Source: Thermoplasmata archaeon
GTDB lineage: Archaea; Thermoplasmatota; Thermoplasmata; Thermoplasmatales; Thermoplasmataceae
Reading direction: 5' to 3'
Assembly (NCBI GenBank): GCA_021799185.1
Contig: JAJZAW010000004.1
Coordinates: 1 to 33,224, forward strand
DNA length: 33,224 nt
Made by a program: the position numbers and the translations under genes. Every line of letters starts with the position of its first letter. Within the stretch, counting starts at the first letter, position 1. Positions 14,428 to 33,219 of the stretch are shown in pieces. The notes below the pieces were generated by a model. That model had not been told where the DNA came from and ran no database searches. It saw nothing but the letters and a program-made list of their open reading frames with translations.

Positions 14428-15666
14428 TTGAAGAATCTCGCTGAGGGAGCAATTTTAAGGTTCAAATACAAACAGACACAGTTTGACGGAATTGTCATAA
14501 GTTCCGCCAACGGCACAGTAAATGTGAAACTCAACAGTGGCTATAACATTACAATCCCTGTGGATTCAATGGATGATGTGGAATTGAGGGGCACACGGAA
14601 GATAGCTGCCACAGAATTCAGACAGGAGAGTGCACATGGTGGCAAAGGAGTTGGCCTTCTTGCAACAGGTGGCACAATTGCCAGCAGGGTTGACTATGTG
14701 ACAGGAGCTGTGAAACCTGTTCTGGACCCTGCATTTCTGGAAGACAGTGTGTCCAATATCCGGAATTTTTCACTGGACATGGATCTAATGGAGCCAGTGC
14801 TGAGCGAAAATATCGCACCGGCAGACTGGGTTGAGATTGCACATAGGGTAATGAGGCTTCTTGAGAAAAACCAGCGCTGTATAGTTCTCCATGGCACTGA
14901 CACAATGTCCTATACTGCTTCAGCACTGTCCTTCATGTTTGATGAGCTGACGGGGCCAATTCTCTTTGTCGGTTCTCAGAGAAGCTCAGACAGGCCAAGC
15001 AGCGATGCATTTCTCAATCTTGAAGCCAGCCTGGAATTCTCTGGGATATCCATGGGAGAAGTGGGCATAGTGATGCACAGGAATATATCTGATCATGAAG
15101 CAGCACTGCACCGCGCAGTGAGGTCAAGGAAAATGCATACCTCGAGAAGAGATGCTTTCCGCACCCTGGGAGGGTTGCCAATGGCAGTATATTCATCTGG
15201 GACAGTGAGTTTCAACGAAGCCCCAAGGCCAGCATCAGATAGAATTCTACTGAAGGACAGACTTGAACATAAGGTTTCAATGGTGTATTTCCACCCATCT
15301 CTTGAGGCGGATGATCTGGAGCAGATACTCCATGGCAGGCGTGCAGCAATAATACTGGGGACAGGGCTTGGCCATGTGGGAAGCAGGCTATACGGTACAA
15401 TAAAAGATGCTGTGAAAAGCGGTGTTAAGATAATAATGACGTCACAGTGCATAAACGGAATGGTTGACATGAATGTCTACTCCACTGGAAGGGAACTCCA
15501 GTCCATAGGGGTAATTCCTGCCGGTTCAATGCTTCCCGAGGTAGCCCTGGTGAAGAGCATGTATCTGTTGGGTAATTATCCTGAGAGCGATTTTAAGGAA
15601 CTGTTCCTTCATGACATGCGGGGAGAGTTTAATCTGAGGGATAGATTGGGAGGTGATCCCCTCTGA
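14428..15666 (+). CDS. gatD: Glutamyl-tRNA(Gln) amidotransferase subunit D (asparaginase-like)
   Basis: GVGLLATGGTIASRVDYVTGAV, IVLHGTDTMSYTASALSF, GSQRSSDRPSSDAF, MTSQCINGMVDMNVYSTGRELQ; TTG start; followed by gatE. Confidence 0.94.
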   Translation: MKNLAEGAILRFKYKQTQFDGIVISSANGTVNVKLNSGYNITIPVDSMDDVELRGTRKIAATEFRQESAHGGKGVGLLATGGTIASRVDYVTGAVKPVLDPAFLEDSVSNIRNFSLDMDLMEPVLSENIAPADWVEIAHRVMRLLEKNQRCIVLHGTDTMSYTASALSFMFDELTGPILFVGSQRSSDRPSSDAFLNLEASLEFSGISMGEVGIVMHRNISDHEAALHRAVRSRKMHTSRRDAFRTLGGLPMAVYSSGTVSFNEAPRPASDRILLKDRLEHKVSMVYFHPSLEADDLEQILHGRRAAIILGTGLGHVGSRLYGTIKDAVKSGVKIIMTSQCINGMVDMNVYSTGRELQSIGVIPAGSMLPEVALVKSMYLLGNYPESDFKELFLHDMRGEFNLRDRLGGDPL

Positions 15667-17468
15667 CTTCACAGGCAAAGATCGGTCTGGAAATCCATGT
15701 ACAACTGGGTGGCAGGAAACTTTTCTGCGCGTGCCCCACCGAAAGTGATGGCACAAAATACGGCTCAATTTACAGAAAACTTTCTCTTTCCACCGGTGAA
15801 ATGGGAAATTATGATCCGGCCGCCGTATATGAAAAAGGCCGCAGCAGGGTATTTGCTTATGAAATTTCTGACAACAGCTGCCTGGTTGAGTATGATGAGG
15901 AGCCTCCACACGATGTCAATAATGAAGCCCTGTTGAAGGGTCTGGCAGTTTCAACGGCACTCAATTGCAGGACAGTTGACGCGCTGGAGTACATGAGAAA
16001 GATAGTGGTCGACGGTTCAAATACATCAGGCTTTCAGAGGACCGCCATAATATCTTTTGGCGGCTGGGTAGATACATCCCGGGGGCGGGTACGGATAAGT
16101 ACCGTATGCCTTGAGGAAGATTCTGCAAGGAAGATTTCAGATGAATCTGCCGAGGTAACATACTCGCTTGACAGGCTGGGAATACCATTGCTGGAGATTG
16201 CCACCGAACCGGATATTGTGGATGGAGAACATGCCGTAGAGGTAGCAAGGCAGATCGGTGACATAATCCTGCTCTCAGGGTGGTCCCGCAGGGCCTCTGA
16301 GTCCATAAGGCAGGACGTTAACTTCTCAATGGGCCACGGCCGTGTTGAAATAAAGGGAGTACCGAAGCTTTCGGCTATCAGGGACTGCCTTTCCTATGAG
16401 AAGGACAGGCAATCTTCATTGATTGAGATATCTGAAAAGCTGGGCGAGGCTTGGAAAAATGGAATAAAGTTCACGGATGTTACGGAATTATTCGCCGCAA
16501 CAGGCTCCAAGGTAATAAGAAGATCTATTGAGGCAGGAATGAGGGTTTATGCTTCCCTGCTTCCTGGTCTTAGTGGGTATCTCAAGAATGGCCCGTACAG
16601 GCTTGGCAGAGAACTGGCCGATGTGGCAAAGCTTTACGGATCAGGGGGAATCATGCACTCAGACGAACTTCCTGGTTATGGCGTTAAGGATGAGCTTGAA
16701 CCCCTGAAAAATATTTTGAAGCCAGGATCTGATGATGGGTTTTTTATCATAGTCTCTGACGAATCGCACATCGGGATCATAGGCCGCGAAATGAATTCCC
16801 GGCTTTCAAAAATTCTTAGGCTTGATTTTTCTGAGACAAGATACGCTGACGCCATGGGAGAGACACATTACCTCAGGCCCCTACCTGGTGGCGAACGCAT
16901 GTATCCTGAAACAGATATCCCAATTTATGAAATAACGAGTGAAATGATCGCCATGGCCCGAGAAATTGTTCCAAAGACCAGAGAAGAGCTAACTGCTGAA
17001 TTATCAGGAAAATATGGGATTTCAAAACAGGAAGCCATGTCAATATTAGTGAACAATCTCGCAGGGTTTATGGACGAAATGGCATCCGTAACTGGCAATG
17101 GAAAACTTGCCTCGCGTTTGCTGCTTCAGGTCATACCAGATCTTGAGAAGAAGGCGTCTGTGGAGATCAGCATGGAAGACGTGAAGAAATTGTTCAATGC
17201 ACTTGCTAAACGGAGTGCAGTCAAGGAGGAATATGAAAGGGCTCTGGAGCTTCTTATCCTTCACTCCATGCCTGTTGATTCAATAATTGTTTCCCCCGAA
17301 ATGAAGCATGTAGAAGTTGATGAACTGCGCAAAGCAATTGTTGCCCTATTTGAAGAAGGCGTCAGCGATAAAAATCTTATCCCCCGTCTCAGGGCATCCG
17401 TAAAGGGGATTTTCGATCCATCTACCGCTTTCAAGATATTCAGGGATATTTCAGGGAAGCAAAATTAA
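15663..17468 (+). CDS. gatE: Glutamyl-tRNA(Gln) amidotransferase subunit E; apparent CTG start, track start 15801 is too late
   Basis: In-frame translation upstream of 15801 is TSQAKIGLEIHVQLGGRKLFCACPTESDGTKYGSIYRKLSLSTGEMGNYDPAAVYEKGRSRVFAYE, the conserved GatB/GatE N-terminus. An in-frame TGA at 15654 leaves CTG 15663 as the only usual near-cognate start; GGGAGGTGAT SD at 15648-15657. Confidence 0.88.
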   Translation: MTSQAKIGLEIHVQLGGRKLFCACPTESDGTKYGSIYRKLSLSTGEMGNYDPAAVYEKGRSRVFAYEISDNSCLVEYDEEPPHDVNNEALLKGLAVSTALNCRTVDALEYMRKIVVDGSNTSGFQRTAIISFGGWVDTSRGRVRISTVCLEEDSARKISDESAEVTYSLDRLGIPLLEIATEPDIVDGEHAVEVARQIGDIILLSGWSRRASESIRQDVNFSMGHGRVEIKGVPKLSAIRDCLSYEKDRQSSLIEISEKLGEAWKNGIKFTDVTELFAATGSKVIRRSIEAGMRVYASLLPGLSGYLKNGPYRLGRELADVAKLYGSGGIMHSDELPGYGVKDELEPLKNILKPGSDDGFFIIVSDESHIGIIGREMNSRLSKILRLDFSETRYADAMGETHYLRPLPGGERMYPETDIPIYEITSEMIAMAREIVPKTREELTAELSGKYGISKQEAMSILVNNLAGFMDEMASVTGNGKLASRLLLQVIPDLEKKASVEISMEDVKKLFNALAKRSAVKEEYERALELLILHSMPVDSIIVSPEMKHVEVDELRKAIVALFEEGVSDKNLIPRLRASVKGIFDPSTAFKIFRDISGKQN

Positions 17469-17543: not shown

Positions 17544-18002
17544 ATGTCTAACGATACTCAGTGGATGTTGGACGGATACATCCCATTACTAATCACCCTG
17601 GTGCTAATGGTTCTCGGGATGCTTGGACTGTTTATGCTTCTTCCCACTCTGGGGGAGAGCCGGTACAGGCCGAATAAAAAGTTTAGCATGAAACCGGATG
17701 ATATTGTTCAGAATCTTGTTCTGGAGCGTTCACCCCCTGCAAAGGACGGGGCGTACCTCGAACCATACGAAACAGGGGAGGTTGCCAGGGGAGAAATTGG
17801 GAAGTTCGTTACTGTCCAGTATTATGTCATAATGCTCCTTTTCATACTTTTTGATGTTGATATGGTTCTTCTTTTCCCGTGGGCATTCGATTTCAAGGTG
17901 CTTGGAATAGTTCCTTTCCTTGAGACAATACTGTTCCTGGCAATGCCGCTGTTTGTGGTTTACTACGCGTTCAGAGAAGGATATATGAGGTGGCAAAAGT
18001 GA
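17544..18002 (+). CDS. nuoA: NADH-quinone oxidoreductase-like subunit A
   Basis: [41 protein letters not shown]; first gene of a complex-I cluster. Confidence 0.93.
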
Positions 18003-18463
18003 AGAGTGGAGAAGGTGGTGCACTTACTACAACTATCGATCAGGCCATGGAATGGGCCAGAAGCAACTCGCTCTGGCCTCTTACTTTTGGGCTTGCTTGC
18101 TGTGCCATAGAGATGATGGCAATTCAGGCTTCAAACCTTGATATTTCAAGATTCGGGAGTGAAATTTTCAGAAACTCGCCCCGGCAGTCCGATCTGATGA
18201 TAGTTTCTGGAACTGTTACCAAGAAGATGGCTCCGAGGCTGAGAAGAATTTATGACGAAATGCCCTATCCGAAATACGTCATAGCCATGGGTGTGTGCGT
18301 CATCCAGGGAGGACCATACCACCTGGGATATTCCGTTGTCCTTGGGGTGGACAGGGTGGTTCCTGTTGATGTATATGTGCCGGGGTGCCCGCCCACTCCT
18401 GAAGCACTTACCTATGGGATAATGCTGCTTCAGAAAAAAATAAGGAATGAAGCGGAGAGGTGA
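17990..18463 (+). CDS. nuoB: NADH-quinone oxidoreductase-like subunit B
   Basis: [16 protein letters not shown]...[20 protein letters not shown]...[15 protein letters not shown]. Confidence 0.96.
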
Positions 18464-18469
18464 TGATTA

Positions 18470-18928
18470 TTGGTTGAAATTATCGAGGAGACCAAAGGAA
18501 AGGACGGAAGGAGAAACCTCAAGGTCGCCAAGGAAAATCTTGTAGAACTGATAAAGGACCTGAAGAGCAAGGGTTATGATCACCTTTCCCTGATCACAGG
18601 CATTGATCGCAAGGATCGGCTGGAAGTAGTTTATCATCTGCATAATATGAAGGAAAATGTGTATGTAGTCGTTAGGACAGAGACCATGGATGAGAGAATG
18701 CCCAGCATTTCATCTCTGTATGCTTCAGCAAACTGGGAGGAGCGCGAACAGTATGACATGCTTGGCATAGTCTTTGAAGGGCACCCTAACCTTAAACGTA
18801 TGTTCCTGCCAGAATCATGGGTTGGCCACCCGCTCAGGAAGAACTACGATCTCTCCAAGGTACAATATGTGAACATGGATGAAGAGGGCAATGATTACGC
18901 TACCTTTGATCCGGGGGATGGTTGGTAA
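18470..18928 (+). CDS. nuoC: NADH-quinone oxidoreductase-like subunit C
   Basis: SISSLYASANWEEREQYDMLGIVFEGHPNLKRMFLPESWVGHPLRKNYDL; TTG start with GAGAGGTGAT SD. Confidence 0.94.
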   Translation: MVEIIEETKGKDGRRNLKVAKENLVELIKDLKSKGYDHLSLITGIDRKDRLEVVYHLHNMKENVYVVVRTETMDERMPSISSLYASANWEEREQYDMLGIVFEGHPNLKRMFLPESWVGHPLRKNYDLSKVQYVNMDEEGNDYATFDPGDGW

Positions 18929-20061
18929 TGGTAGTTGAAGGTGAAAAAATAGATCAGTCCAGGGAATGGGTAGAACTCAACATCGGCCCGCAGCATCCAT
19001 CCACACATGGTGTGCTAAGGCTGAAAGTTAAACTTGACGGGGAAACGGTCAAGGATGTTGAGCCAATTATTGGCTATCTGCACAGGAACGCAGAAAAGCT
19101 ATGCGAAATGGATTATTACTGCGATTCACTCATTTATTTCGACAGAATGGATTATGTTGGGGCAATGAACATGGAGCTGGGATACCTGGAGGCTGCAGAG
19201 AAGGTTCTGGGAATCCCGCCGCCTGAAAGGGCCCAGTGGATTAGGGTCATAATGGCTGAGCTCAACAGAATTGCAGCGCATCTTGTATGGGCAGGTGCCT
19301 TTGGTCTGGACCTCGGAATGCTTACGCCTTTCTTTTACTGCTTCATAGAGCGTGAAAAGGTCCTGAAAAGATTTACTGCAGTAAGTGAGTCAAGGCAGCA
19401 GACAAACTACATGAGTATTGGGGGAGTTTATCAGGATATAGATGACCAGATAATTTACGACATAGAACAGTTTACAGAGGAATTCCCAGCCAAACTGGAG
19501 GATATTTTCAACACATTCGTGAAGAATGATATATTCATATCAAGAAATAAGGGAGTTGGCATTCTGGAACCTGAGGTTGCAATAGACTATGGCGTAACCG
19601 GCCCAATGCTCAGGGCATCAGGTGTGGAATATGATGTGAGAAAAGCTGAGCCTTACCTTGTATACGACAAATTGAATTTTGACATACCCGTATCATACAA
19701 AAAAGATAATCTTGCCAGATTTCTGGTACGTTTTGAGGAAATGCGCCAGTCCATAAGAATAATAAAACAGGCCATTAAGAAGATCCCGGATGGGCCATAT
19801 TTTAACCCCAAGGCAAAGAAGTCCCTGATGATCAGGCTCAGGGGAGAAGGCGAGGCGTATGCAAGAACTGAATCTTCCAAGGGTGAATTTGGCGTTTACA
19901 TAGTTGCAGATGGCAGTGTCAAACCTTACCGGGTACATGTAAGAAGCCCTGCAATGAGAAATCTTGCTGTGCTGCCGCATCTCGCCAAGGATGTTATGAT
20001 AGCGGATCTCTTCTCAATTTCAGGCACCACTGACCTCGTATTCGGCGAGGTGGATAGATGA
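18928..20061 (+). CDS. nuoD: NADH-quinone oxidoreductase-like subunit D
   Basis: LNIGPQHPSTHGVLRLKVKLDGE, GYLHRNAEKLCE, SRQQTNYMSIGGV, DLVFGEVDR; ATG 18928. Confidence 0.96.
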   Translation: MVVEGEKIDQSREWVELNIGPQHPSTHGVLRLKVKLDGETVKDVEPIIGYLHRNAEKLCEMDYYCDSLIYFDRMDYVGAMNMELGYLEAAEKVLGIPPPERAQWIRVIMAELNRIAAHLVWAGAFGLDLGMLTPFFYCFIEREKVLKRFTAVSESRQQTNYMSIGGVYQDIDDQIIYDIEQFTEEFPAKLEDIFNTFVKNDIFISRNKGVGILEPEVAIDYGVTGPMLRASGVEYDVRKAEPYLVYDKLNFDIPVSYKKDNLARFLVRFEEMRQSIRIIKQAIKKIPDGPYFNPKAKKSLMIRLRGEGEAYARTESSKGEFGVYIVADGSVKPYRVHVRSPAMRNLAVLPHLAKDVMIADLFSISGTTDLVFGEVDR

Positions 20062-21098
20062 GCGTGCTGGAGAGGCTGGCCGCATTCTTTGCAATACTTG
20101 GCCACTATCCTGCTTATATTCTGGCTTATTTCTTCGAAACTCTGTTCATGCTGATTTTTGTGGTTGTGATGCTCATAGTCATGATTTACCTGTTCCGTAA
20201 ATACATGGCACGCGTTCAGCTCAGAATTGGCCCTAACCGGGTTGGAAAGGCCGGGACGTTGCAGTTAATAGCTGATGCTCTGAAACTTGTTGGAAAAGAG
20301 AGCATCCTTCCCAGCAGACGTGATGACCTTCCATATAAGATTGCGCCAATAGTTGTGTTCCTGGGACTCATAATGGCTTTTGCTATTATCCCGTACGGGG
20401 ATTTCTATTACATCGGCTCACTGACAATAACTCACTCCGACGTTTCTCTCCTTTTACTCTTTGCTGCCCTGGCCATTATGCCGGTTGGTGAGGTCCTGGC
20501 TGGAGTGAGTTCGAAGAACAAATATGCTGTGCTTGGTGCACTAAGAGGCGTCGCCAAGGATATATCGTTTGAAGTTCCTATGATGGTATCAGTGCTTGCT
20601 CTGGTAATGATGGCGTCAGCAAGGACAAATCAGCCTCTTAACTTGGAAAACCTGATTTCTGTGCAGTCAATACCATATGGCATACCTCAGGTAATAGGGC
20701 TTGGCGTCTTCTTTATTGCCATGATTGCGAGGGCAGCCTACTCTCCTTTTGACATGAGTGAAAGTGACAGTGAGCTTGTTTCAGGGCATTCTATAGAATA
20801 TTCCGGCATGAGATTCGGCATGTTCTACATGGGAATGTTCGGAAGCATATTCCTTGGATCAATGATTGTATCATTACTTTATTTGGGCGCATATAACGGG
20901 CCATTTTCAGGAGATGCGGGGTTCATATATCTCTTCATCAAGGCAATGGTGCTGGTTATACTTTCATTCACAATATGGCTGTCAGTTCCGAGGATAAGAA
21001 TAGACCGGTTTGTAAACATGGGATGGAAATACCTGCTACCAGCAGCTATAATTAATCTGATAATTGCAGGAATATTAACTCTGGGGTTGTCGCTATGA
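20058..21098 (+). CDS. nuoH: NADH-quinone oxidoreductase-like subunit H
   Basis: RVQLRIGPNRVGKAGTLQLIADALKLVGKE...ARAAYSPFDMSESDSELVSGHSIEYSGMRFGMFYMG; ATGA overlap with nuoD. Confidence 0.95.
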   Translation: MSVLERLAAFFAILGHYPAYILAYFFETLFMLIFVVVMLIVMIYLFRKYMARVQLRIGPNRVGKAGTLQLIADALKLVGKESILPSRRDDLPYKIAPIVVFLGLIMAFAIIPYGDFYYIGSLTITHSDVSLLLLFAALAIMPVGEVLAGVSSKNKYAVLGALRGVAKDISFEVPMMVSVLALVMMASARTNQPLNLENLISVQSIPYGIPQVIGLGVFFIAMIARAAYSPFDMSESDSELVSGHSIEYSGMRFGMFYMGMFGSIFLGSMIVSLLYLGAYNGPFSGDAGFIYLFIKAMVLVILSFTIWLSVPRIRIDRFVNMGWKYLLPAAIINLIIAGILTLGLSL

Positions 21099-21529
21099 TA
21101 GAAGTTAAGGAACCTAAGAAAGAAATACCACTGATCGGCACAATTAAGGCAGTTGTATCCGTGGGCAAGCACGCTCTGCAGAAACCCGTAACGGTTCAGT
21201 ATCCTGAAGAGAAACCGGATTATCCTGACAGGTTCAGGTTCAGAATATTTCTGAGCCTCGATGACTGTGTTGGGTGCACCCTGTGTGAACAGGTATGTCC
21301 AAATAAAAGCATAACAATGCAGAAAGTGAACCGTGAAAATCCAAGAAACAAGAGACATATCTATCCGGATGTAAACTTTGGAACATGCACCGTATGCCGC
21401 AACTGTGAGGAAATCTGCCCTACTGATGCTATTTACCTTACCCATACATTCGAGCTTGCCAGAACCCGCAACAGCTTCACTTATTCTCCGGAGGAACTTT
21501 CTCTGCCGGAGGACGAGGTGATAAAGTGA
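21095..21529 (+). CDS. nuoI: NADH-quinone oxidoreductase-like subunit I (2[4Fe-4S])
   Basis: CVGCTLCEQVCP and CTVCRNCEEICP cluster motifs; ATGA overlap with nuoH. Confidence 0.94.
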   Translation: MIEVKEPKKEIPLIGTIKAVVSVGKHALQKPVTVQYPEEKPDYPDRFRFRIFLSLDDCVGCTLCEQVCPNKSITMQKVNRENPRNKRHIYPDVNFGTCTVCRNCEEICPTDAIYLTHTFELARTRNSFTYSPEELSLPEDEVIK

Positions 21530-21774
21530 TTTACACAATCATCCTCATACTTTTCGCCATAATACTGATCCCTCTGGCCCTGAAGACAATCGCCGAAAAG
21601 AATCTCACACATTCCGCAGTTTACCTGATGGTCTTTCTGGTTATGCTCTCAGCGCTGTTCATATTCCTGGGTGGTTCCATAGTTGGCGCAGTCGAACTTC
21701 TGGTCTTTGTCGGGGCTGTGGTGACGCTTCTGGTATTCACACTTATGCTCAGTGGGGGGAAAGAGCTTGAATAA
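21526..21774 (+). CDS. nuoJ: NADH-quinone oxidoreductase-like subunit J, N-terminal half (J1)
   Basis: 82 aa hydrophobic protein with the NuoJ motif GAVELLVFVGAVVTLLVFTLML; between nuoI and nuoK. Confidence 0.82.
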   Translation: MIYTIILILFAIILIPLALKTIAEKNLTHSAVYLMVFLVMLSALFIFLGGSIVGAVELLVFVGAVVTLLVFTLMLSGGKELE

Positions 21775-21985
21775 TAAGCTATCAGCTCTGGCAGCAGGCC
21801 TTTTTTTAGTCGTATTCGGGATAGAGGTAGCAAGAATAAGGTATGATTTCACCCCGACTTCACAGGACATTGGGCAGATAGGCATCACGCTTTTCGGTAA
21901 ATATATTCTTCCATTTGAACTGCTTTCACTGATTCTTGTGGCAGGGATCATAGGAATGTTCTATATTGCAGGGAGGGAAGATTAA
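21767..21985 (+). CDS. nuoJ: NADH-quinone oxidoreductase-like subunit J, C-terminal half (J2)
   Basis: SQDIGQIGITLFGKYILPFELLSLILVAGIIGMFYIAGRED matches the NuoJ C-terminus; TTG 21767 or GTG 21752 start overlapping J1. Confidence 0.8.
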   Translation: MNNKLSALAAGLFLVVFGIEVARIRYDFTPTSQDIGQIGITLFGKYILPFELLSLILVAGIIGMFYIAGRED

Positions 21986-22284
21986 TGCAGATATTTCTTG
22001 TCAGCATGCTTTCGTTGATTCTATTTGTCATCGGCCTCTACGGGGTGATGACATCCAACATCGGCATTAAGATGCTTATATCACTTGAAATAATCATAAA
22101 TGCTGCAATTCTCAATCTGGTAGCTGTAGCAATAGCTTACGGCTCTGTTGATCCAATTATAATGGCACTGTTCGGCATTGCCATAGGCGCGGTGGAATCC
22201 GTTGTGGGACTCAGCCTTCTCACAGCCACATATAAGAAGGTCGGCAGGATTGCCATTTCACTGCTGAAGGAGATAAAGTGGTAA
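21985..22284 (+). CDS. nuoK: NADH-quinone oxidoreductase-like subunit K
   Basis: LIGLYGVMTSNIGIKMLISLEIIINAAILNLVA...GIAIGAVESVVGLSLLTATYKK; overlaps J2 stop. Confidence 0.94.
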   Translation: MQIFLVSMLSLILFVIGLYGVMTSNIGIKMLISLEIIINAAILNLVAVAIAYGSVDPIIMALFGIAIGAVESVVGLSLLTATYKKVGRIAISLLKEIKW

Positions 22285-22285
22285 C

Positions 22286-24223
22286 ATGTATTGGCCTGGT
22301 TGGTTCATATTTCTAAGTCCTCTAATTGGCGCCCCCATTGCTCTCGCTGTGGGGAAACGTTACAAATCACTGTCAGGAATTATAGCATCACTCGCTGTTG
22401 GCGGAGCACTGGTTGCTTCTATCATAACGTTTTTCTACGTAGATACGGGAACCGTTGTCTCCAACAGCTCCAAACTTTACGTTATAACCGGACAGTACGC
22501 TTACAACCACTACCTGTGGTTCTTCAACATAGACATTGGCATATTCATCGACAGGCTCGCCATAATGATGGCGCTGATGGTATCATTTGTGTCTCTGATG
22601 ATACATCTCTTTGCCCTATATTATATGAAGAATGATCCCAACAGGCACGTGTATTTTGCCGAGACGTCCCTGTTTACGGCCGGAATGCTCGGTCTTGTTG
22701 TTGCTTCTAATCTTGTTGTATTCTTCCTGTTCTGGGAACTGGTAGGGTTGTGTTCATACCTGCTTATAGGATTCTGGTTCTTCAAGCCGAATGCAACTGC
22801 AGCGGCCAAGAAGGCATTTATAGTCACCAGGGTCGGCGATCTTCTTTTCCTTGTTGGTATGGCAATTCTCTATGATTCCCTGGTAGGCTTTCCAGGTCTT
22901 GGCAGCAACAGCCCCCTCAGTATACCTTTTCTTATAAACAACGCAAGCCTTATTGCCTCATATATTGGAAAGAACACACTTGGCATCATAGCAGTATTGT
23001 TCCTGGCCGGGGCAGCCGGAAAATCTGCCCAATTTCCCCTGCACGTATGGATACCTGACGCAATGGAAGGCCCCACCACAGTTTCTGCCCTTATCCATGC
23101 AGCAACCATGGTTACTGCAGGCGTGTATCTTGTTGCCAGGGTTTTTAACATATTTTATGCGGCAGCGCCTTTCGCCCTGTATTCAGTAGTGATACTTGGG
23201 GCCTTTACTGCCGTTTTTGCGGGAATAATAGGAATATTTGTCAACGACATAAAGCGTATCCTGGCATATTCAACAATAAGCCAGATAGGGTACATGTTTG
23301 CTGCCATTGGACTGGGTGGTCTGTTTGGATACGCCGCAGTGCCACTGGGCATGTTCCATCTGGTGGTTCATGCAGTGTTCAAAGCGCTTCTGTTCATGTC
23401 GGCAGGTGCAATTCTCATTGCCCTTATGGACCTCAGGGATACCAGGGAAATGGGCGGCCTTTGGAGAAAGATGCCCATGACGGTTACGCTCCTATTCATA
23501 GGATCGCTTGCGCTAATTGCTTTTCCGGGAACTGCAGGGTACTTCTCCAAGGATTCAATAATATCAGCATCCTGGATGTACTACGCGCACTATGGTACTG
23601 CATGGAGCTTTATTCCGTGGATATTCCTTGCAACCGGGTCTCTTCTGACAACTCTGTATACGTTCCGTATGTTTTTCAGAGTTTCACTGGGGAAACCAAG
23701 ATCGCATCTCGCTGAGCATGCAAGGGACCCCTCGGTGTTTCCATTGATACCACTTTTCATCCTGGCGGCCGGCGCACTGTTTCTGGGCCTTTTACAGACA
23801 CCATTCTACAAATTCATCACACCGGAGGCTTTCGTTCCTTCTGTCCCAATTTATATTGAAGCCGTACCAATAACGCTTCTTGCCATTGGCCTCATAGTTA
23901 CTTACATAATCTACGGCACAGACAGATGGAAACATATGGACTTCAGCAGGAACAGGCTATACAGGGTTGCCAAAAATAAGTTCTATCTGGACACCCTTTT
24001 CACAAACGTAATTGCAGAGAGGGTAATAGCACCCTTGTCAGGTGGAATAGCAACCTTTGAGAATGCCTACAACAGTGCAGTGGACAGAACAGGATCAGGG
24101 ACCTTATCTCTCGGGTCATTCTTCAGAAAACTGCAGGATGGGGTTGTCGAGAATTATTTTGTTGTTCTGATAATAGGTATTTCCATAGTCTTCATCATTT
24201 TGCTTCTGGCGGGGGTAATGTAA
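22286..24223 (+). CDS. nuoL: NADH-quinone oxidoreductase-like subunit L
   Basis: FFLFWELVGLCSYLLIGFWF, AGKSAQFPLHVWIPDAMEGPTTVSALIHAATMVTAGVYLVAR, DIKRILAYSTISQIGYM. Confidence 0.96.
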   Translation: MYWPGWFIFLSPLIGAPIALAVGKRYKSLSGIIASLAVGGALVASIITFFYVDTGTVVSNSSKLYVITGQYAYNHYLWFFNIDIGIFIDRLAIMMALMVSFVSLMIHLFALYYMKNDPNRHVYFAETSLFTAGMLGLVVASNLVVFFLFWELVGLCSYLLIGFWFFKPNATAAAKKAFIVTRVGDLLFLVGMAILYDSLVGFPGLGSNSPLSIPFLINNASLIASYIGKNTLGIIAVLFLAGAAGKSAQFPLHVWIPDAMEGPTTVSALIHAATMVTAGVYLVARVFNIFYAAAPFALYSVVILGAFTAVFAGIIGIFVNDIKRILAYSTISQIGYMFAAIGLGGLFGYAAVPLGMFHLVVHAVFKALLFMSAGAILIALMDLRDTREMGGLWRKMPMTVTLLFIGSLALIAFPGTAGYFSKDSIISASWMYYAHYGTAWSFIPWIFLATGSLLTTLYTFRMFFRVSLGKPRSHLAEHARDPSVFPLIPLFILAAGALFLGLLQTPFYKFITPEAFVPSVPIYIEAVPITLLAIGLIVTYIIYGTDRWKHMDFSRNRLYRVAKNKFYLDTLFTNVIAERVIAPLSGGIATFENAYNSAVDRTGSGTLSLGSFFRKLQDGVVENYFVVLIIGISIVFIILLLAGVM

Positions 24224-24224
24224 T

Positions 24225-25706
24225 TTGTTTATTCTCATACTTTTCATCCTAATGGTACTTGCATCTGTGGCTTCATTTGCATTCAGGGAGTACAGGCGTG
24301 AATATGCCCTCATCGCCACTGCCATAATACTCATTGCTACAATAGTTTACAGCATACTCACGTTCAGCACCGGCTACGGAGCTGGGGGTTTCCGTTCGCA
24401 GAGCGTATACGATCTAGCACCGTCCATCGGTATTACGTTTTCTGTTGGTGTGAGTGGATTTGCCGATGCACTGCTCATACTTTCTGGCATTGTCATATTT
24501 ATAGCGGCTTTCATTGCCGGGAAGCATGAATTCACACAGACAATGTATTCATACATTATGATAACTGAAGTGGGACTTTATGGGATACTTATATCCAGAG
24601 ATTTCCTGTTCTTTTATATTTTCTGGGAAGTTGTATTAATACCGGTGTATTTCATGGTTGCACAGTATGGTGGGCGGAACAAGGATCACGTGTCGTTAAA
24701 GTTCTTTGTGTACACCCATATAGGATCGGTATTCCTTCTTCTTTCCATATTCACAGTTTATGCATATCACTACGATGCTACCGGTACATTCACCTTTGAA
24801 ATAGGCGCATTAATGCAGCCAAAATATATTGATATGATACCTGTTGATCTCAGATACTTTGCATTTTTTGGTTTTCTCTTTGCATTTCTTGTGAAGATGC
24901 CATCATTCCCGCTTCACTCATGGTTGCCAGATACCTACGAAACATCACCGTATCCAGGAACCGTCATACTTGCAGGCGGGCTGTCTCTCATGGGCGGTTA
25001 CGGCCTGTTCGGGATCCTCATGCCAATATACAGTTCGCTTGGAACCGGCATTCTGCAACTTCTGGTGGCCCTGGGCATTATCAGTCTCCTATACTTCTCC
25101 TTTACCGCTCTAATTCAGAAGAACCTCAAACGCATGATGGCATTTGCCAGCGCCGGAGCAATGGGCTTTGTCACACTTTCATTCGGAGCCGGCCTGCTGG
25201 AAGGAGCAAAATATACCGCCAGCCTCGAGCTGGCCGGAGGCATGTTCCAGATAGTGGCTCACGGGCTAATAATGGCCATGATATTCACGGCGCTGTATTT
25301 CATAAAGATGAGCACGGGCAAAGAAACAACCTATGGATTGGGAGGGATATACCGTGAAGTCCCAATGCTCAGCACTTTTCTTCTTGCTGGATTGCTTGCG
25401 TCCCTCGGCCTGCCTGGTCTTGCCGGATTTATTGGAGAATTCTCAATTCTTATCGGGTCATTTGCAGCAATAGGATGGCTCATACTGCTGGTGATACTTG
25501 GAATGATCGTAACGGCATCATATCATATATGGGCAGCGCAGAAATCGCTGTACGGCCCTTATAACGAGAATCTGGGAAATATATCTGACCTTACGCCATC
25601 TCGATTCGCTATACTTATTGGTACATTTGCTGCAATATTCATACTTGGAATTGTTCCGAACCTGATCTATGGCATACTCGTATCATATGTTGGAGGTATA
25701 ATCTAA
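24225..25706 (+). CDS. nuoM: NADH-quinone oxidoreductase-like subunit M
   Basis: FYIFWEVVLIPVYFMVAQYGG, VKMPSFPLHSWLPDTYETSPYPGTVILAG, NLKRMMAFASAGAMGF; TTG start. Confidence 0.95.
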   Translation: MFILILFILMVLASVASFAFREYRREYALIATAIILIATIVYSILTFSTGYGAGGFRSQSVYDLAPSIGITFSVGVSGFADALLILSGIVIFIAAFIAGKHEFTQTMYSYIMITEVGLYGILISRDFLFFYIFWEVVLIPVYFMVAQYGGRNKDHVSLKFFVYTHIGSVFLLLSIFTVYAYHYDATGTFTFEIGALMQPKYIDMIPVDLRYFAFFGFLFAFLVKMPSFPLHSWLPDTYETSPYPGTVILAGGLSLMGGYGLFGILMPIYSSLGTGILQLLVALGIISLLYFSFTALIQKNLKRMMAFASAGAMGFVTLSFGAGLLEGAKYTASLELAGGMFQIVAHGLIMAMIFTALYFIKMSTGKETTYGLGGIYREVPMLSTFLLAGLLASLGLPGLAGFIGEFSILIGSFAAIGWLILLVILGMIVTASYHIWAAQKSLYGPYNENLGNISDLTPSRFAILIGTFAAIFILGIVPNLIYGILVSYVGGII

Positions 25707-27154
25707 TGACCGCTGCAATTATCTCACTAAGTGGAGCTCAGGCTCTAGCAACCTTTACGCCAGAGATATTTCTGGGGCTTGTAGGCTTCATAATCCTTGC
25801 TCTTGGGACATTCAGAATAGATAAGCGTATAATTTCGTGGATATCCTTTGGAGCACTGGGAATAGCCGCAATTATGGTATTTTTCCTGTCTCCAACTGGG
25901 AAATCTCTTTTTTCAGGGACATTCCTCTATTCTGATTTCGGCATTTACTTTGCCATAGTTATGCTGCTTTCAGGAATGTTAATTTCATATCCGGCTATAA
26001 GGGCCATTAAATCAAAGAGTGAGGTATTCTATGCTACCCTTCTCTTCGTATCAGTAGGCATGATATTTGCCGCATTCAGCTATAATCTGATTACTCTCTT
26101 CGTTGCCTTTGAATCTGTTAGTATTGGGACATATGTGCTGGCTAGTTTTGGCAAATCCAGGCGCAATCTGGAGGGGACAATAAAATACTTCTTTACAGGA
26201 ACAATTGCAACGGCTTTCATACTTTTCGGAGCTTCATTCTTCTTTCTGCAGACGCATACGTTCAACCTGCAGGTTATTCCTTCAGTCGCCCCTTCCCCGG
26301 AGCTTCTCATTTCACTTGTTTTCCTCATAATAGGGTTTGGCTTCAAGCTTGCAATTTTCCCAATGCATCAGTGGGCACTGGATACATACGATGGCACTGA
26401 AAATTCCATATCGGCATACCTTGCTGCCGGGAGCAAAGTACTGGCTTTCCTGGTAATATTAAAGATATTCCTCGTGGGCTTTTCCTCAGATTTCAGAGAT
26501 GTTTCGTATCTCTTTATAATACTCTCAATACTGACCATGACGTACGGAAATGTTTCAGCCCTGTCTCAGAACAATCTGAAACGGCTCCTGGCATATTCCA
26601 GCATAGCCCAGGCGGGTTATCTCATACTCGTTCTTGCTGTTGTTGGCTTTGTGGGTAACGCAGATTCTCCTGTGGTGGACGTGGCCGTGGCGGCGGGAAT
26701 GTTCTACGCTCTTGTCTACGTGTTTATGAAAGGAGGTGCTTTCATAACGCTGAACATGATCCGGAAGGATAATGTCCAGATCAATGATGTTTCAGGCCTG
26801 GCAAAGAAATCGCCTGCAACGGCAGTCAGCTTCGCAGTAATGTTGCTTGCACTTGCCGGCGTTCCCATTACCGGCGGGTTCTTCGCCAAGTATCTCCTGT
26901 TTCTGTCATTGATAGAGGGGAACCTCTGGTGGCTTGCCATAATAGCAATTCTGAACAGTGCAATCTCTGTTTTCTATTATTTCAGGATAATTCTGTACAT
27001 GTTTGGCAAGGACCCAATACCCGGGGAATCGTTTGATATGTCTGCGTCGGCCAGGGTTCCCATTTATGCTTCAGCATTCATAACAGTTGCCCTTTCAGTT
27101 GTGGTCGTATGGTGGCCTTCCCTGATAAGCATGGCAAACGGATTATTCGGGTGA
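25706..27154 (+). CDS. nuoN: NADH-quinone oxidoreductase-like subunit N
   Basis: FVAFESVSIGTYVLASFGKS, FKLAIFPMHQWALDTYDGTENSISAYLAAGSKV, NLKRLLAYSSIAQAGYLI. Confidence 0.95.
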   Translation: MTAAIISLSGAQALATFTPEIFLGLVGFIILALGTFRIDKRIISWISFGALGIAAIMVFFLSPTGKSLFSGTFLYSDFGIYFAIVMLLSGMLISYPAIRAIKSKSEVFYATLLFVSVGMIFAAFSYNLITLFVAFESVSIGTYVLASFGKSRRNLEGTIKYFFTGTIATAFILFGASFFFLQTHTFNLQVIPSVAPSPELLISLVFLIIGFGFKLAIFPMHQWALDTYDGTENSISAYLAAGSKVLAFLVILKIFLVGFSSDFRDVSYLFIILSILTMTYGNVSALSQNNLKRLLAYSSIAQAGYLILVLAVVGFVGNADSPVVDVAVAAGMFYALVYVFMKGGAFITLNMIRKDNVQINDVSGLAKKSPATAVSFAVMLLALAGVPITGGFFAKYLLFLSLIEGNLWWLAIIAILNSAISVFYYFRIILYMFGKDPIPGESFDMSASARVPIYASAFITVALSVVVVWWPSLISMANGLFG

Positions 27155-27159
27155 TTAAA

Positions 27160-27525
27160 ATGTCCATAGATAGCGATATGGAAATAATAAAAAGTGCAAT
27201 AATATATGGCGATATTGGGGACGCAGAAAAAGTTATCCAGAAGCGCATAAGGAATCTTGGGTTCCTGCTGAAGAGAAAGAATGCTCCTGACCTTAGGGCA
27301 TATCAGAATTTCCTGAAGGCTCTTGACGGTCTCTTGAGGTCCCAGATGACACTGGAGCAGTTTAAATCTGTTAGTGGGGGGATCCACGGACTTGAAAATA
27401 TTCTGGAAAGGAACACCGGCGAGCACGGATATCTTCCATCCCTGTTCTATCTGCTTCAGTTCTCCCTGGACAGGTATAATGTAAGATTCCCTGAATTCGA
27501 CATGAAGAGGTGTGATGATCTGTGA
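27160..27525 (+). CDS. Uncharacterised 121-aa protein at the 3' end of the nuo cluster
   Basis: ATG 27160 lies 5 nt after the nuoN stop; soluble, mostly helical-looking sequence; GTGA overlap with the next ORF. No recognised family. Confidence 0.75.
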   Translation: MSIDSDMEIIKSAIIYGDIGDAEKVIQKRIRNLGFLLKRKNAPDLRAYQNFLKALDGLLRSQMTLEQFKSVSGGIHGLENILERNTGEHGYLPSLFYLLQFSLDRYNVRFPEFDMKRCDDL

Positions 27526-27776
27526 CAGCAAGATTCGACGATTGCTTTTCGCACATTGAAGAAAATGAAGAGTCGGCAGCGGAATGCATCCATTGCCTGA
27601 AAAAACATGGTGAACAGGTGATGTACGATCCCGAGCAGAAGCGCTTGATTCTTGGCAGAGAAATATACGACGACAGTTATTCCAGAGCCATGAGGACCCT
27701 CACGGATATTATGAAAATTACTTCGCTGGAAGATTATGAGGCAATGGACAGAAAGTACAATCTCACAATGTATTGA
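27522..27776 (+). CDS. Uncharacterised 84-aa protein with a Cys/His-containing N-terminal segment
   Basis: GTGA overlap with preceding ORF (GTG 27522); MTARFDDCFSHIEENEESAAECIHCLKKHGEQ contains a C-x2-C pair plus nearby Cys and His residues. Confidence 0.72.
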   Translation: MTARFDDCFSHIEENEESAAECIHCLKKHGEQVMYDPEQKRLILGREIYDDSYSRAMRTLTDIMKITSLEDYEAMDRKYNLTMY

Positions 27777-27833: not shown

Positions 27834-28571
27834 ATGTCCCTGGCGCGGGTTCCTCTGGTAAGTCTTAAGACAGAGGCCGATCTCAATGTTCTGACAATAT
27901 CAAACGGAGTGAATAACAGCCTCACAAATGAAGGGCTCAGGGACATGATGGTAGCACTTGCGGAGGCTCTTTCAGGAAACACCAACCCCATAATGATCAC
28001 GGGTATGGGCGAAAGGGCATTTTCCGTTGGTTATTCCGCTTCCTGCACCAAGATATCTGACAAAATGCATCTGGAAGAAGCTTATTCGCTTGGTACTTCA
28101 GTAGCAAGAACATTACTGAGAAATGATCGGCCAGTCATATCCGCCATCAACGGTTATGCACTGGGACTGGGCCTTGAAATTGCATTATGTTCGGACTTTA
28201 TAATAAGTTCAGATAGATCACGCTTCGGTATGCCGGAGATCAGGTTTGGAATACCATCACTCACAGGTTTTGTGCCAGAAATCCCTGATAAGTATCCCGG
28301 TGGCCTTTTCGCCGCAGTAAAATCAGGTGAGATTTTCGGAATAGAGGAAGCCAGGTCATTCGGTATGATTACAGCAATAATAGATTCCAGGAACTTCATC
28401 AAAGAGGCTGAAAATTATTGCAGAAAGATGGAAACCAGGTTGGTGAAAATGCTGAAGCCTCCAGAACGGGTTGGGCAGTATCGTCAGGCTGTAGATTCTT
28501 TATTTTTCAGAATCTACTCGCCAAGCTGCCTGACCATGAGGGAATTAGAGCGCTTCCGTAACAGTATTTGA
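27834..28571 (+). CDS. Enoyl-CoA hydratase/isomerase family protein
   Basis: RPVISAINGYALGLGLEIALCSDFIISSDRSRFGMPEIRFGIPS; TTAATTTTTAAG TATA-like sequence upstream. Confidence 0.88.
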   Translation: MSLARVPLVSLKTEADLNVLTISNGVNNSLTNEGLRDMMVALAEALSGNTNPIMITGMGERAFSVGYSASCTKISDKMHLEEAYSLGTSVARTLLRNDRPVISAINGYALGLGLEIALCSDFIISSDRSRFGMPEIRFGIPSLTGFVPEIPDKYPGGLFAAVKSGEIFGIEEARSFGMITAIIDSRNFIKEAENYCRKMETRLVKMLKPPERVGQYRQAVDSLFFRIYSPSCLTMRELERFRNSI

Positions 28572-29742: not shown

Positions 29743-30081
29743 TCATTCCATATCTAGCTGGACTTCATAGCCTATTTTCCTGAAGGAATCAGCATTTGCC
29801 CTGAGTTCACTTGCCAATTCATTTGAAATGGAAGAGAATGACAAAGAAAGAACACGCTTTTTGGAGTTGACAACAACAAAGCCCACAGTCTTGTCCTCCG
29901 GCATCACCTCATCCGTTCTGGAAAAGCCCTCAATGAATTCCTGCAGTTCCTCCTCCACGTACTCACTGGAAAGCACATCCGCAAGGGCACGAAGCGAACG
30001 GGCTACATTTGAAAGCTCAACGCATATTACGGCGGGGTGTCTATCCCCCACGGTAATATTATACATAGCACAGAGAGTCAA
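29743..30081 (-). CDS. Uncharacterised small protein downstream of peroxiredoxin
   Basis: Open frame 3' of the peroxiredoxin on the same strand; VGFVVVNSKKRVLSLSFSSISNELASELRANADSFRKIGYEVQLDME; likely start is the internal ATG (MYNITVGD) near 30066. No family recognised. Confidence 0.6.
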   Translation of the reverse strand: MTLCAMYNITVGDRHPAVICVELSNVARSLRALADVLSSEYVEEELQEFIEGFSRTDEVMPEDKTVGFVVVNSKKRVLSLSFSSISNELASELRANADSFRKIGYEVQLDME

Positions 30082-32511: not shown

Positions 32512-33219
32512 TTACACAATATCAAACAGCTTTATGTCAGGCCAGTGCGATTTGTCATATTCAGGAATAGCAGCATATGAGATTCTGGGGGCTGAGTTCA
32601 TCAAAGCATAGCCGCTCACTTCTTTGAAATGAATCGCCAGATTTGAGTAATGGCTGATTTTTCCGTAATACTCATCATCAGCTATTATTATTGTTGCGCC
32701 AGTTGGCCTTATTCCATTGATAAGGTTCACAAGGTCCCCAAAAAAGTCGGGGCCATATGTAAACATCAGGAAATCGGTAGAAAAGAAGTAAAGGTTTGGC
32801 CTGGAAGATGACGACATGAAGAAATCTATAACATCATTCGGGAAATCCTCAACGATGCTCTTCCCCTCAAGGTTGATAACAAATGAATTAGCCCTCTTGG
32901 ATTTTTCTGCAGTTATATAGTGTTTCATCGTTTCCGGATCCATAACGTTGACCAGAATCCTGGATGTCTCATAGCTGCTTGATGTGGCATCGATTACACC
33001 ACGGCCCACGGAAATGGCGTTCTTTATAAGATTGTTCTTCACAAGGTTGACAACATCATTAACCACGTTTGAATTGTCTTTCCTGTGAAACATTATCACA
33101 GAGCCAAGTGGGATTGACTTTGATCCGGTTGGAGTAAGCTTCGGGAGATCAGAAGAATCCAGTGGTACTTCAAATTCCTCGTGACTCCTTCCAGTCTCAA
33201 CATTAATGCGGGTATTGGC
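32512..33219 (-). CDS. Uncharacterised protein, possibly degenerate RecA/KaiC-like fold; N-terminus unresolved
   Basis: Frame stays open upstream of the track GTG (33099) to an in-frame TGA at 33220-33222: ...DSSDLPKLTPTGSKSIPLGSVIMFHRKDNSNVVNDVVNLVKNNLIKNAISVGRGVIDATSS...; the SIPLGSVIMFHRKDNSNVV segment has the layout of a KaiC-type Walker A region lacking GKT. Confidence 0.55.
   Translation of the reverse strand, partial: ANTRINVETGRSHEEFEVPLDSSDLPKLTPTGSKSIPLGSVIMFHRKDNSNVVNDVVNLVKNNLIKNAISVGRGVIDATSSSYETSRILVNVMDPETMKHYITAEKSKRANSFVINLEGKSIVEDFPNDVIDFFMSSSSRPNLYFFSTDFLMFTYGPDFFGDLVNLINGIRPTGATIIIADDEYYGKISHYSNLAIHFKEVSGYALMNSAPRISYAAIPEYDKSHWPDIKLFDIV

Follow-up and report, generated by a model that had tools for sequence, protein, structure and literature searches.

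A pair of small genes behind nuoN as candidate accessory subunits of complex I in the Thermoplasmatales

The nuo cluster and the two genes that follow it

The window, by which we mean the whole stretch of 33,224 nucleotides that was analysed, carries on its forward strand a complex I cluster in the order nuoA, B, C, D, H, I, J (as two ORFs), K, L, M and N. Matches to family models identify nuoA (17544-18002; NF005022), nuoB (17990-18463; TIGR01957), nuoC (18470-18928; NF004737), nuoD (18922-20061; NF004739), nuoI (21095-21529; NF004545), nuoL (22286-24223; NF005141/TIGR01974) and nuoN (25706-27154; NF004445, above the cut-off), and the two ORFs of nuoJ (21526-21985, as 21526-21774 and 21752-21985) match halves of PF00499. 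Other grounds served for nuoH (20058-21098), named from matches to NuoH/ND1 chains in the PDB, among which there was no archaeal respiratory complex I; for nuoK (21985-22284, 99 aa), named from cluster order, position and size; and for nuoM (24225-25706), named from its position, a weaker second match of the NuoN model and a tree. Immediately upstream of nuoA lie a GatD-like gene (14428-15666) and GatE (15801-17468), both Glu-tRNA(Gln) amidotransferase genes, and GatE is also the upstream neighbour at the Thermoplasma acidophilum locus (L108).

Two further genes follow nuoN on the same strand. ORF1 (27160-27525; ATG start, TGA stop) encodes a protein of 121 aa and 14.0 kDa, predicted to be soluble and all-helical, and ORF2 (27522-27776; GTG start, TGA stop) one of 84 aa and 10.0 kDa, predicted to be a small soluble alpha/beta protein. 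The coordinates given by the original prediction are exact: nuoN stops at 27154, the ATG of ORF1 follows 5 nt downstream, and the end of ORF1 and the start of ORF2 share the GTGA at 27522-27525. The mechanical list of ORFs opens the frame of ORF1 at 27109 (138 aa), and the alignment with relatives begins at 27160. Neither ORF shows the dN/dS near 1 that would mark a missing coding signal. Between close pairs, with those of saturated or near-zero synonymous change excluded, the ratio is about 0.05-0.16 for ORF1 and about 0.01-0.07 for ORF2, as compared with 0.03-0.06 for nuoN. Both ORFs are genuine genes and evolve under purifying selection.

The genes 3' of ORF2 vary by lineage: an enoyl-CoA hydratase type on the same strand in 23 genomes, a Ta0956 type on the opposite strand in 17, TatC on the opposite strand in 8, and others elsewhere. 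Since these neighbours differ between lineages, the conserved block ends at ORF2. The window itself has an enoyl-CoA hydratase-like gene 57 nt downstream (27834-28571, same strand); a gene of this kind comes next after ORF2 in 23/72 genomes, so that some members of the family may transcribe the two together. The window also holds a member of the Pfam family TA0956 (29743-30081, reverse strand) and, near its end, a protein that matches GvpD basic region 2 (32512-33099, reverse strand; E 1e-12). In Thermoplasma, Ferroplasma, Acidiplasma and genus g14 a TA0956-type gene lies directly after ORF2 on the opposite strand, often with a 4-nt overlap. As ORF2 adjoins a gene of this family in the T. acidophilum genome, it probably corresponds to Ta0957, and ORF1 to Ta0958; a text search of the literature on these two names found no paper.

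Distribution, sequence and fold of ORF1 and ORF2

ORF1 and ORF2 are each present in 73/77 genomes of the family and in 35/35 of the near-complete ones, far more than chance would give; nuoN was found in 74/77, in positions adjacent to them. Three families of the order contribute 88 genomes in which nuoN-ORF1-ORF2 stands as an intact block. Across these the gap from nuoN to ORF1 runs from -8 to +12 nt, a minimal estimate since the start codon nearest to the preceding stop was used, and ORF1 and ORF2 overlap by 4 nt in 81 of the 88 (ATGA in 65, GTGA in 11, TTGA in 5). Of the 117 genomes of the order, 89 have ORF1 together with NuoL, 22 have neither, and three are discordant each way; all six of the latter are incomplete (62-83%), and contig ends were seen in them. 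Eighteen of the 22 double-negative genomes belong to family f2, which has only distant matches of the hydrogenase-type antiporter kind. ORF1 and ORF2 are thus missing from members of the order without complex I.

Outside the order, ORF1 was not found in 300 genomes of the class, and ORF2 was not found there except for one fragment at E = 0.009, nor in 293 genomes of the phylum except for one marginal match. nuoN itself is present in 98/121 class genomes at E below 1e-60, and in the other orders of the class, at the 20 loci inspected, it ends the run with no homologous small gene behind it. The pair is thus an addition that arose within the Thermoplasmatales.

Some weak or irregular matches were set aside. 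The 583-aa frame that seems to fuse nuoN and ORF1 in genome G069 has unknown residues at the junction and was treated as an assembly gap. A weak match to ORF2 in genome G362 lies inside a 335-aa protein, kinase-like from a reading of its sequence, and was taken as chance. Weak matches to ORF1 in family f2, which lacks the true gene, lie at the C-terminus of a small GTPase of the Ras type (L241:2587-3381). The helical tail of this protein is weakly similar to residues 1-60 of ORF1 (hhalign probability 79, uncorrected P 1.7e-5); it could be a remote origin of the ORF1 fold, or the likeness may be chance.

These data bear on the alternative that the pair has nothing to do with complex I and forms a separate small operon, encoding for instance a regulator or a stress pair, which is read through from nuo. 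Such a view draws on the facts that the families of both proteins are unknown and that their link to complex I comes from genomic data. We regard it as very unlikely: the linkage to nuoN holds without a break across 88 genomes, against variable genes 3' of ORF2, the pair disappears along with complex I, and in genus g14, where ORF1 and ORF2 are separate, each is still found with nuo genes (see below). Constant linkage to nuo genes and joint presence or absence, the two genomic tests applied for a complex I companion, both gave a positive result, and the conservation next to nuoN in relatives on which the original prediction depended is borne out. That the two proteins serve complex I in some way is, in our assessment, highly probable. 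With adjacency to nuoN conserved and the genes occurring together with complex I throughout the order, they are rightly classed as accessory subunits or assembly factors, both foreseen in the original prediction.

Sequence comparison gave no family for either protein, as the original prediction had it. No Pfam or NCBIfam match was found for ORF1 or ORF2 even at E up to 10, and scans of the alignment members (Pfam and NCBIfam for ORF2, Pfam for ORF1) returned scattered chance matches, none common to more than a few members. Profile searches of the PDB revealed nothing significant for either protein, and Foldseek against the PDB no match below E = 1. AlphaFold models ORF1 as helical (pLDDT 84), with its last residues unstructured (pLDDT of the tail 41-51), and ORF2 as a compact alpha/beta protein (pLDDT 89).

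The C-terminal tails are the most conserved parts of both proteins, above the protein bodies. Residues 105-120 of ORF1 form the motif RY(N/D)..P.(F/Y)(D/N).(K/Q)R(C).D, in which R105, Y106, P111 and R117 are invariant, and mean column entropy is 1.0-1.3 bits at 101-120 versus 1.9-3.3 elsewhere. ORF2 ends in (Y/F)N(L/I)TxY-COOH in 57/57 representatives, with a mean column entropy of 0.25 over the last four residues. Since the tail of ORF1 is disordered in the model of the protein alone and yet conserved, this suggests that it docks onto a partner.

Our favored reading, which we hold to be somewhat more likely than not, is that ORF1 and ORF2 are accessory subunits of complex I, with ORF1 seated on the NuoL/NuoM module. 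They would be dedicated proteins of the 11-subunit type of complex I without an NADH module, and would have arisen within the Thermoplasmatales. Both would be small proteins on the cytoplasmic side. Through the conserved tails at their C-termini, ORF1 would dock onto the distal antiporter module NuoL/NuoM and ORF2 onto the remaining core, at NuoN or neighbouring subunits. Their presumed role would be to stabilize, hold together or cap the membrane arm, and not to transport electrons.

The main rival is that the two are dedicated membrane-arm assembly factors, that is chaperones which leave after the complex is built, ORF1 aiding the insertion or joining of NuoL/NuoM and ORF2 acting on NuoN or the core. 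A universally conserved factor would give the same linkage, co-occurrence and split pattern, both proteins are small and soluble with conserved tails, and their genes are the last of the operon. Two observations fit a stoichiometric subunit somewhat better, without being decisive: the direct translational coupling to subunit genes, and the rate of ORF2, which evolves as slowly as a core subunit (summed tree length 15.7 versus 15.4 for NuoN). We consider assembly factors a possible but less likely explanation. Rate covariation is weak and decides nothing either way. Over 103 branches rho was 0.21 for ORF1-ORF2, 0.22 for ORF2-NuoL, 0.12 for ORF1-NuoM and 0.03 for ORF1-NuoL, and negative with NuoI for both ORFs (-0.24, -0.29); known Nuo partners were uncorrelated too.

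The split cluster of genus g14 and the question of electron input

The best evidence for localisation comes from genus g14, and should be weighed as one genus and perhaps one event. In two species of this genus (G055, loci L061-L063; G056, loci L064-L066) the main cluster reads nuoA-B-C-D-H-I-J-K-nuoN-ORF2 and is devoid of nuoL, nuoM and ORF1. These genes are found instead in two tightly packed nuoL-nuoM-ORF1 cassettes, each at a separate place; the arrangement in G056 is the same, on shorter contigs and with nuoL or nuoM partial. Both copies of the distal pump pair are thus followed by ORF1, and ORF2 has kept its place after nuoN. The genus is probably Picrophilus, which fits the GC content of 32-38% in its stretches and the clustering of its NuoM with Ferroplasma and Acidiplasma in the tree.

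In the NuoM tree the protein of cassette A groups with the Ferroplasmaceae orthologues and that of cassette B is a diverged paralogue; the NuoL tree places the two cassettes together, both on long branches. NuoL and NuoM of both cassettes retain 141-147 of about 163 and 60-63 of 68 family-invariant positions, respectively, including nearly all charged ones. In NuoM of cassette B a histidine that is invariant elsewhere has been replaced (H346A). A second full NuoL was found in no other genome except G033, where it is apparently a duplicate contig. The two diverged cassettes suggest two interchangeable distal pump modules.

A further alternative sees the pair as the electron-input module that the complex lacks, or as an adaptor docking ferredoxin, a flavoprotein or a NuoEF-like partner on NuoB/C/D/I. 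The operon has no NuoEFG and the complex needs some donor, and ORF2 remains with the peripheral-arm genes when the operon is split. ORF1, however, departs from these genes and travels with nuoL-nuoM, other orders of the class that have nuoN have neither gene, and the rates of both ORFs covary negatively with NuoI. Neither ORF1 nor ORF2 can be placed as NuoE, NuoF or NuoG, to judge from the Pfam and NCBIfam scans. The original prediction had considered a metal-binding input adaptor on account of a C-x2-C pair in ORF2. The pair is indeed present in the ORF2 of the window, but it is not conserved: both cysteines (C22 and C25) occur in 28/57 representatives, His24 is kept in 44/57 and becomes Arg in the other 13, and ORF2 of family f4 has neither Cys nor His at these positions. 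With these ligands lost and no conserved metal or cofactor ligands present, the metal-binding adaptor was rejected.

The label "EFG-less" that the original prediction gave to this complex I holds for the cluster; the genome, however, encodes a NuoF-like protein on another contig. NuoF-like (PF01512) proteins occur in 27/77 genomes of the family, including that of the window, where the 487-aa protein is followed by a 913-aa NuoG/formate-dehydrogenase-like protein (contig C148, L235:2570-6690). At the loci examined the NuoF-like gene likewise precedes such a protein of about 890-913 aa, away from nuo, and its product appears to belong to a soluble formate dehydrogenase. Genomes with and without the NuoF-like gene alike carry ORF1 and ORF2, which are therefore not adaptors tied to this protein. 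Taken with the loss of the ligands, this makes a part in electron input quite unlikely, and the search for the electron donor is redirected, as ORF1 and ORF2 are probably not the input adaptor. Furthermore, the statement in PMC5155288 (2016) that no Thermoplasmatales genome has NuoEF needs a qualifier, since a NuoF-like protein is encoded in 27/77 genomes of this family.

Relation to known forms of complex I

The host cluster has the same composition as the 11-subunit archaeal or Fpo-like complex I that lacks NuoEFG, and the order nuoABCDHIJ(J)KLMN without EFG has been published for Thermoplasmatales (PMC5155288, PMC3750248). In the excerpts of these two papers the descriptions stop at nuoN, and the two extra genes are not mentioned there. 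As far as the literature searched shows, the genes represent a previously undescribed, Thermoplasmatales-specific pair of complex I companions.

So far, archaeal complex I in the most acidophilic known organisms has been described as the bare 11-subunit core. If ORF1 and ORF2 are subunits, the inventory of archaeal complex I is incomplete, and the genus with the split cluster offers a test case from nature for the attachment and exchange of the distal pump module. Neither protein has a known family or a fold match in the PDB, and their small size makes direct structural study in T. acidophilum practicable.

FpoO of Methanosarcina is likewise a non-core gene of a related complex. In the Methanosarcina fpo operon fpoO sits after fpoN. 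Neither ORF matches a model in NCBIfam, which may or may not include one for FpoO. In PMC4153887 FpoO is listed as a subunit absent from the Methanomassiliicoccales. Small, lineage-restricted additions to the core are also seen in NDUFA9 of Mycobacterium and in NDUFA12, S4 and S6 of Paracoccus (cited in PMC12361115); ORF1 and ORF2 do not belong to these families, since they have no Pfam or NCBIfam match.

The cyanobacterial NDH-1MS has a swappable distal pair, NdhF3/NdhD3, with its own cytoplasmic cap, CupA/CupS (PMC6981117). The nuoL-nuoM-ORF1 cassettes of g14, two per genome, resemble this in layout only, insofar as ORF1 travels with a duplicated pair of the NuoL/NuoM type. ORF1 differs in being a 121-aa, all-helical protein without a Zn site, as against the 50-kDa CupA and the 16-kDa CupS, and we rejected it as a member of either family as it gave no significant PDB sequence or Foldseek match. 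By analogy, and rather speculatively, one could picture a 13-protein complex I in the Thermoplasmatales in which ORF1 would be the docking or coupling subunit of an exchangeable distal pump module. The Picrophilus-like genus might then swap two nuoL-nuoM-ORF1 modules on one ORF2-bearing core, giving these extreme acidophiles two forms that would differ in pumping character and would have arisen independently of the cyanobacterial NDH-1L/NDH-1MS pair.
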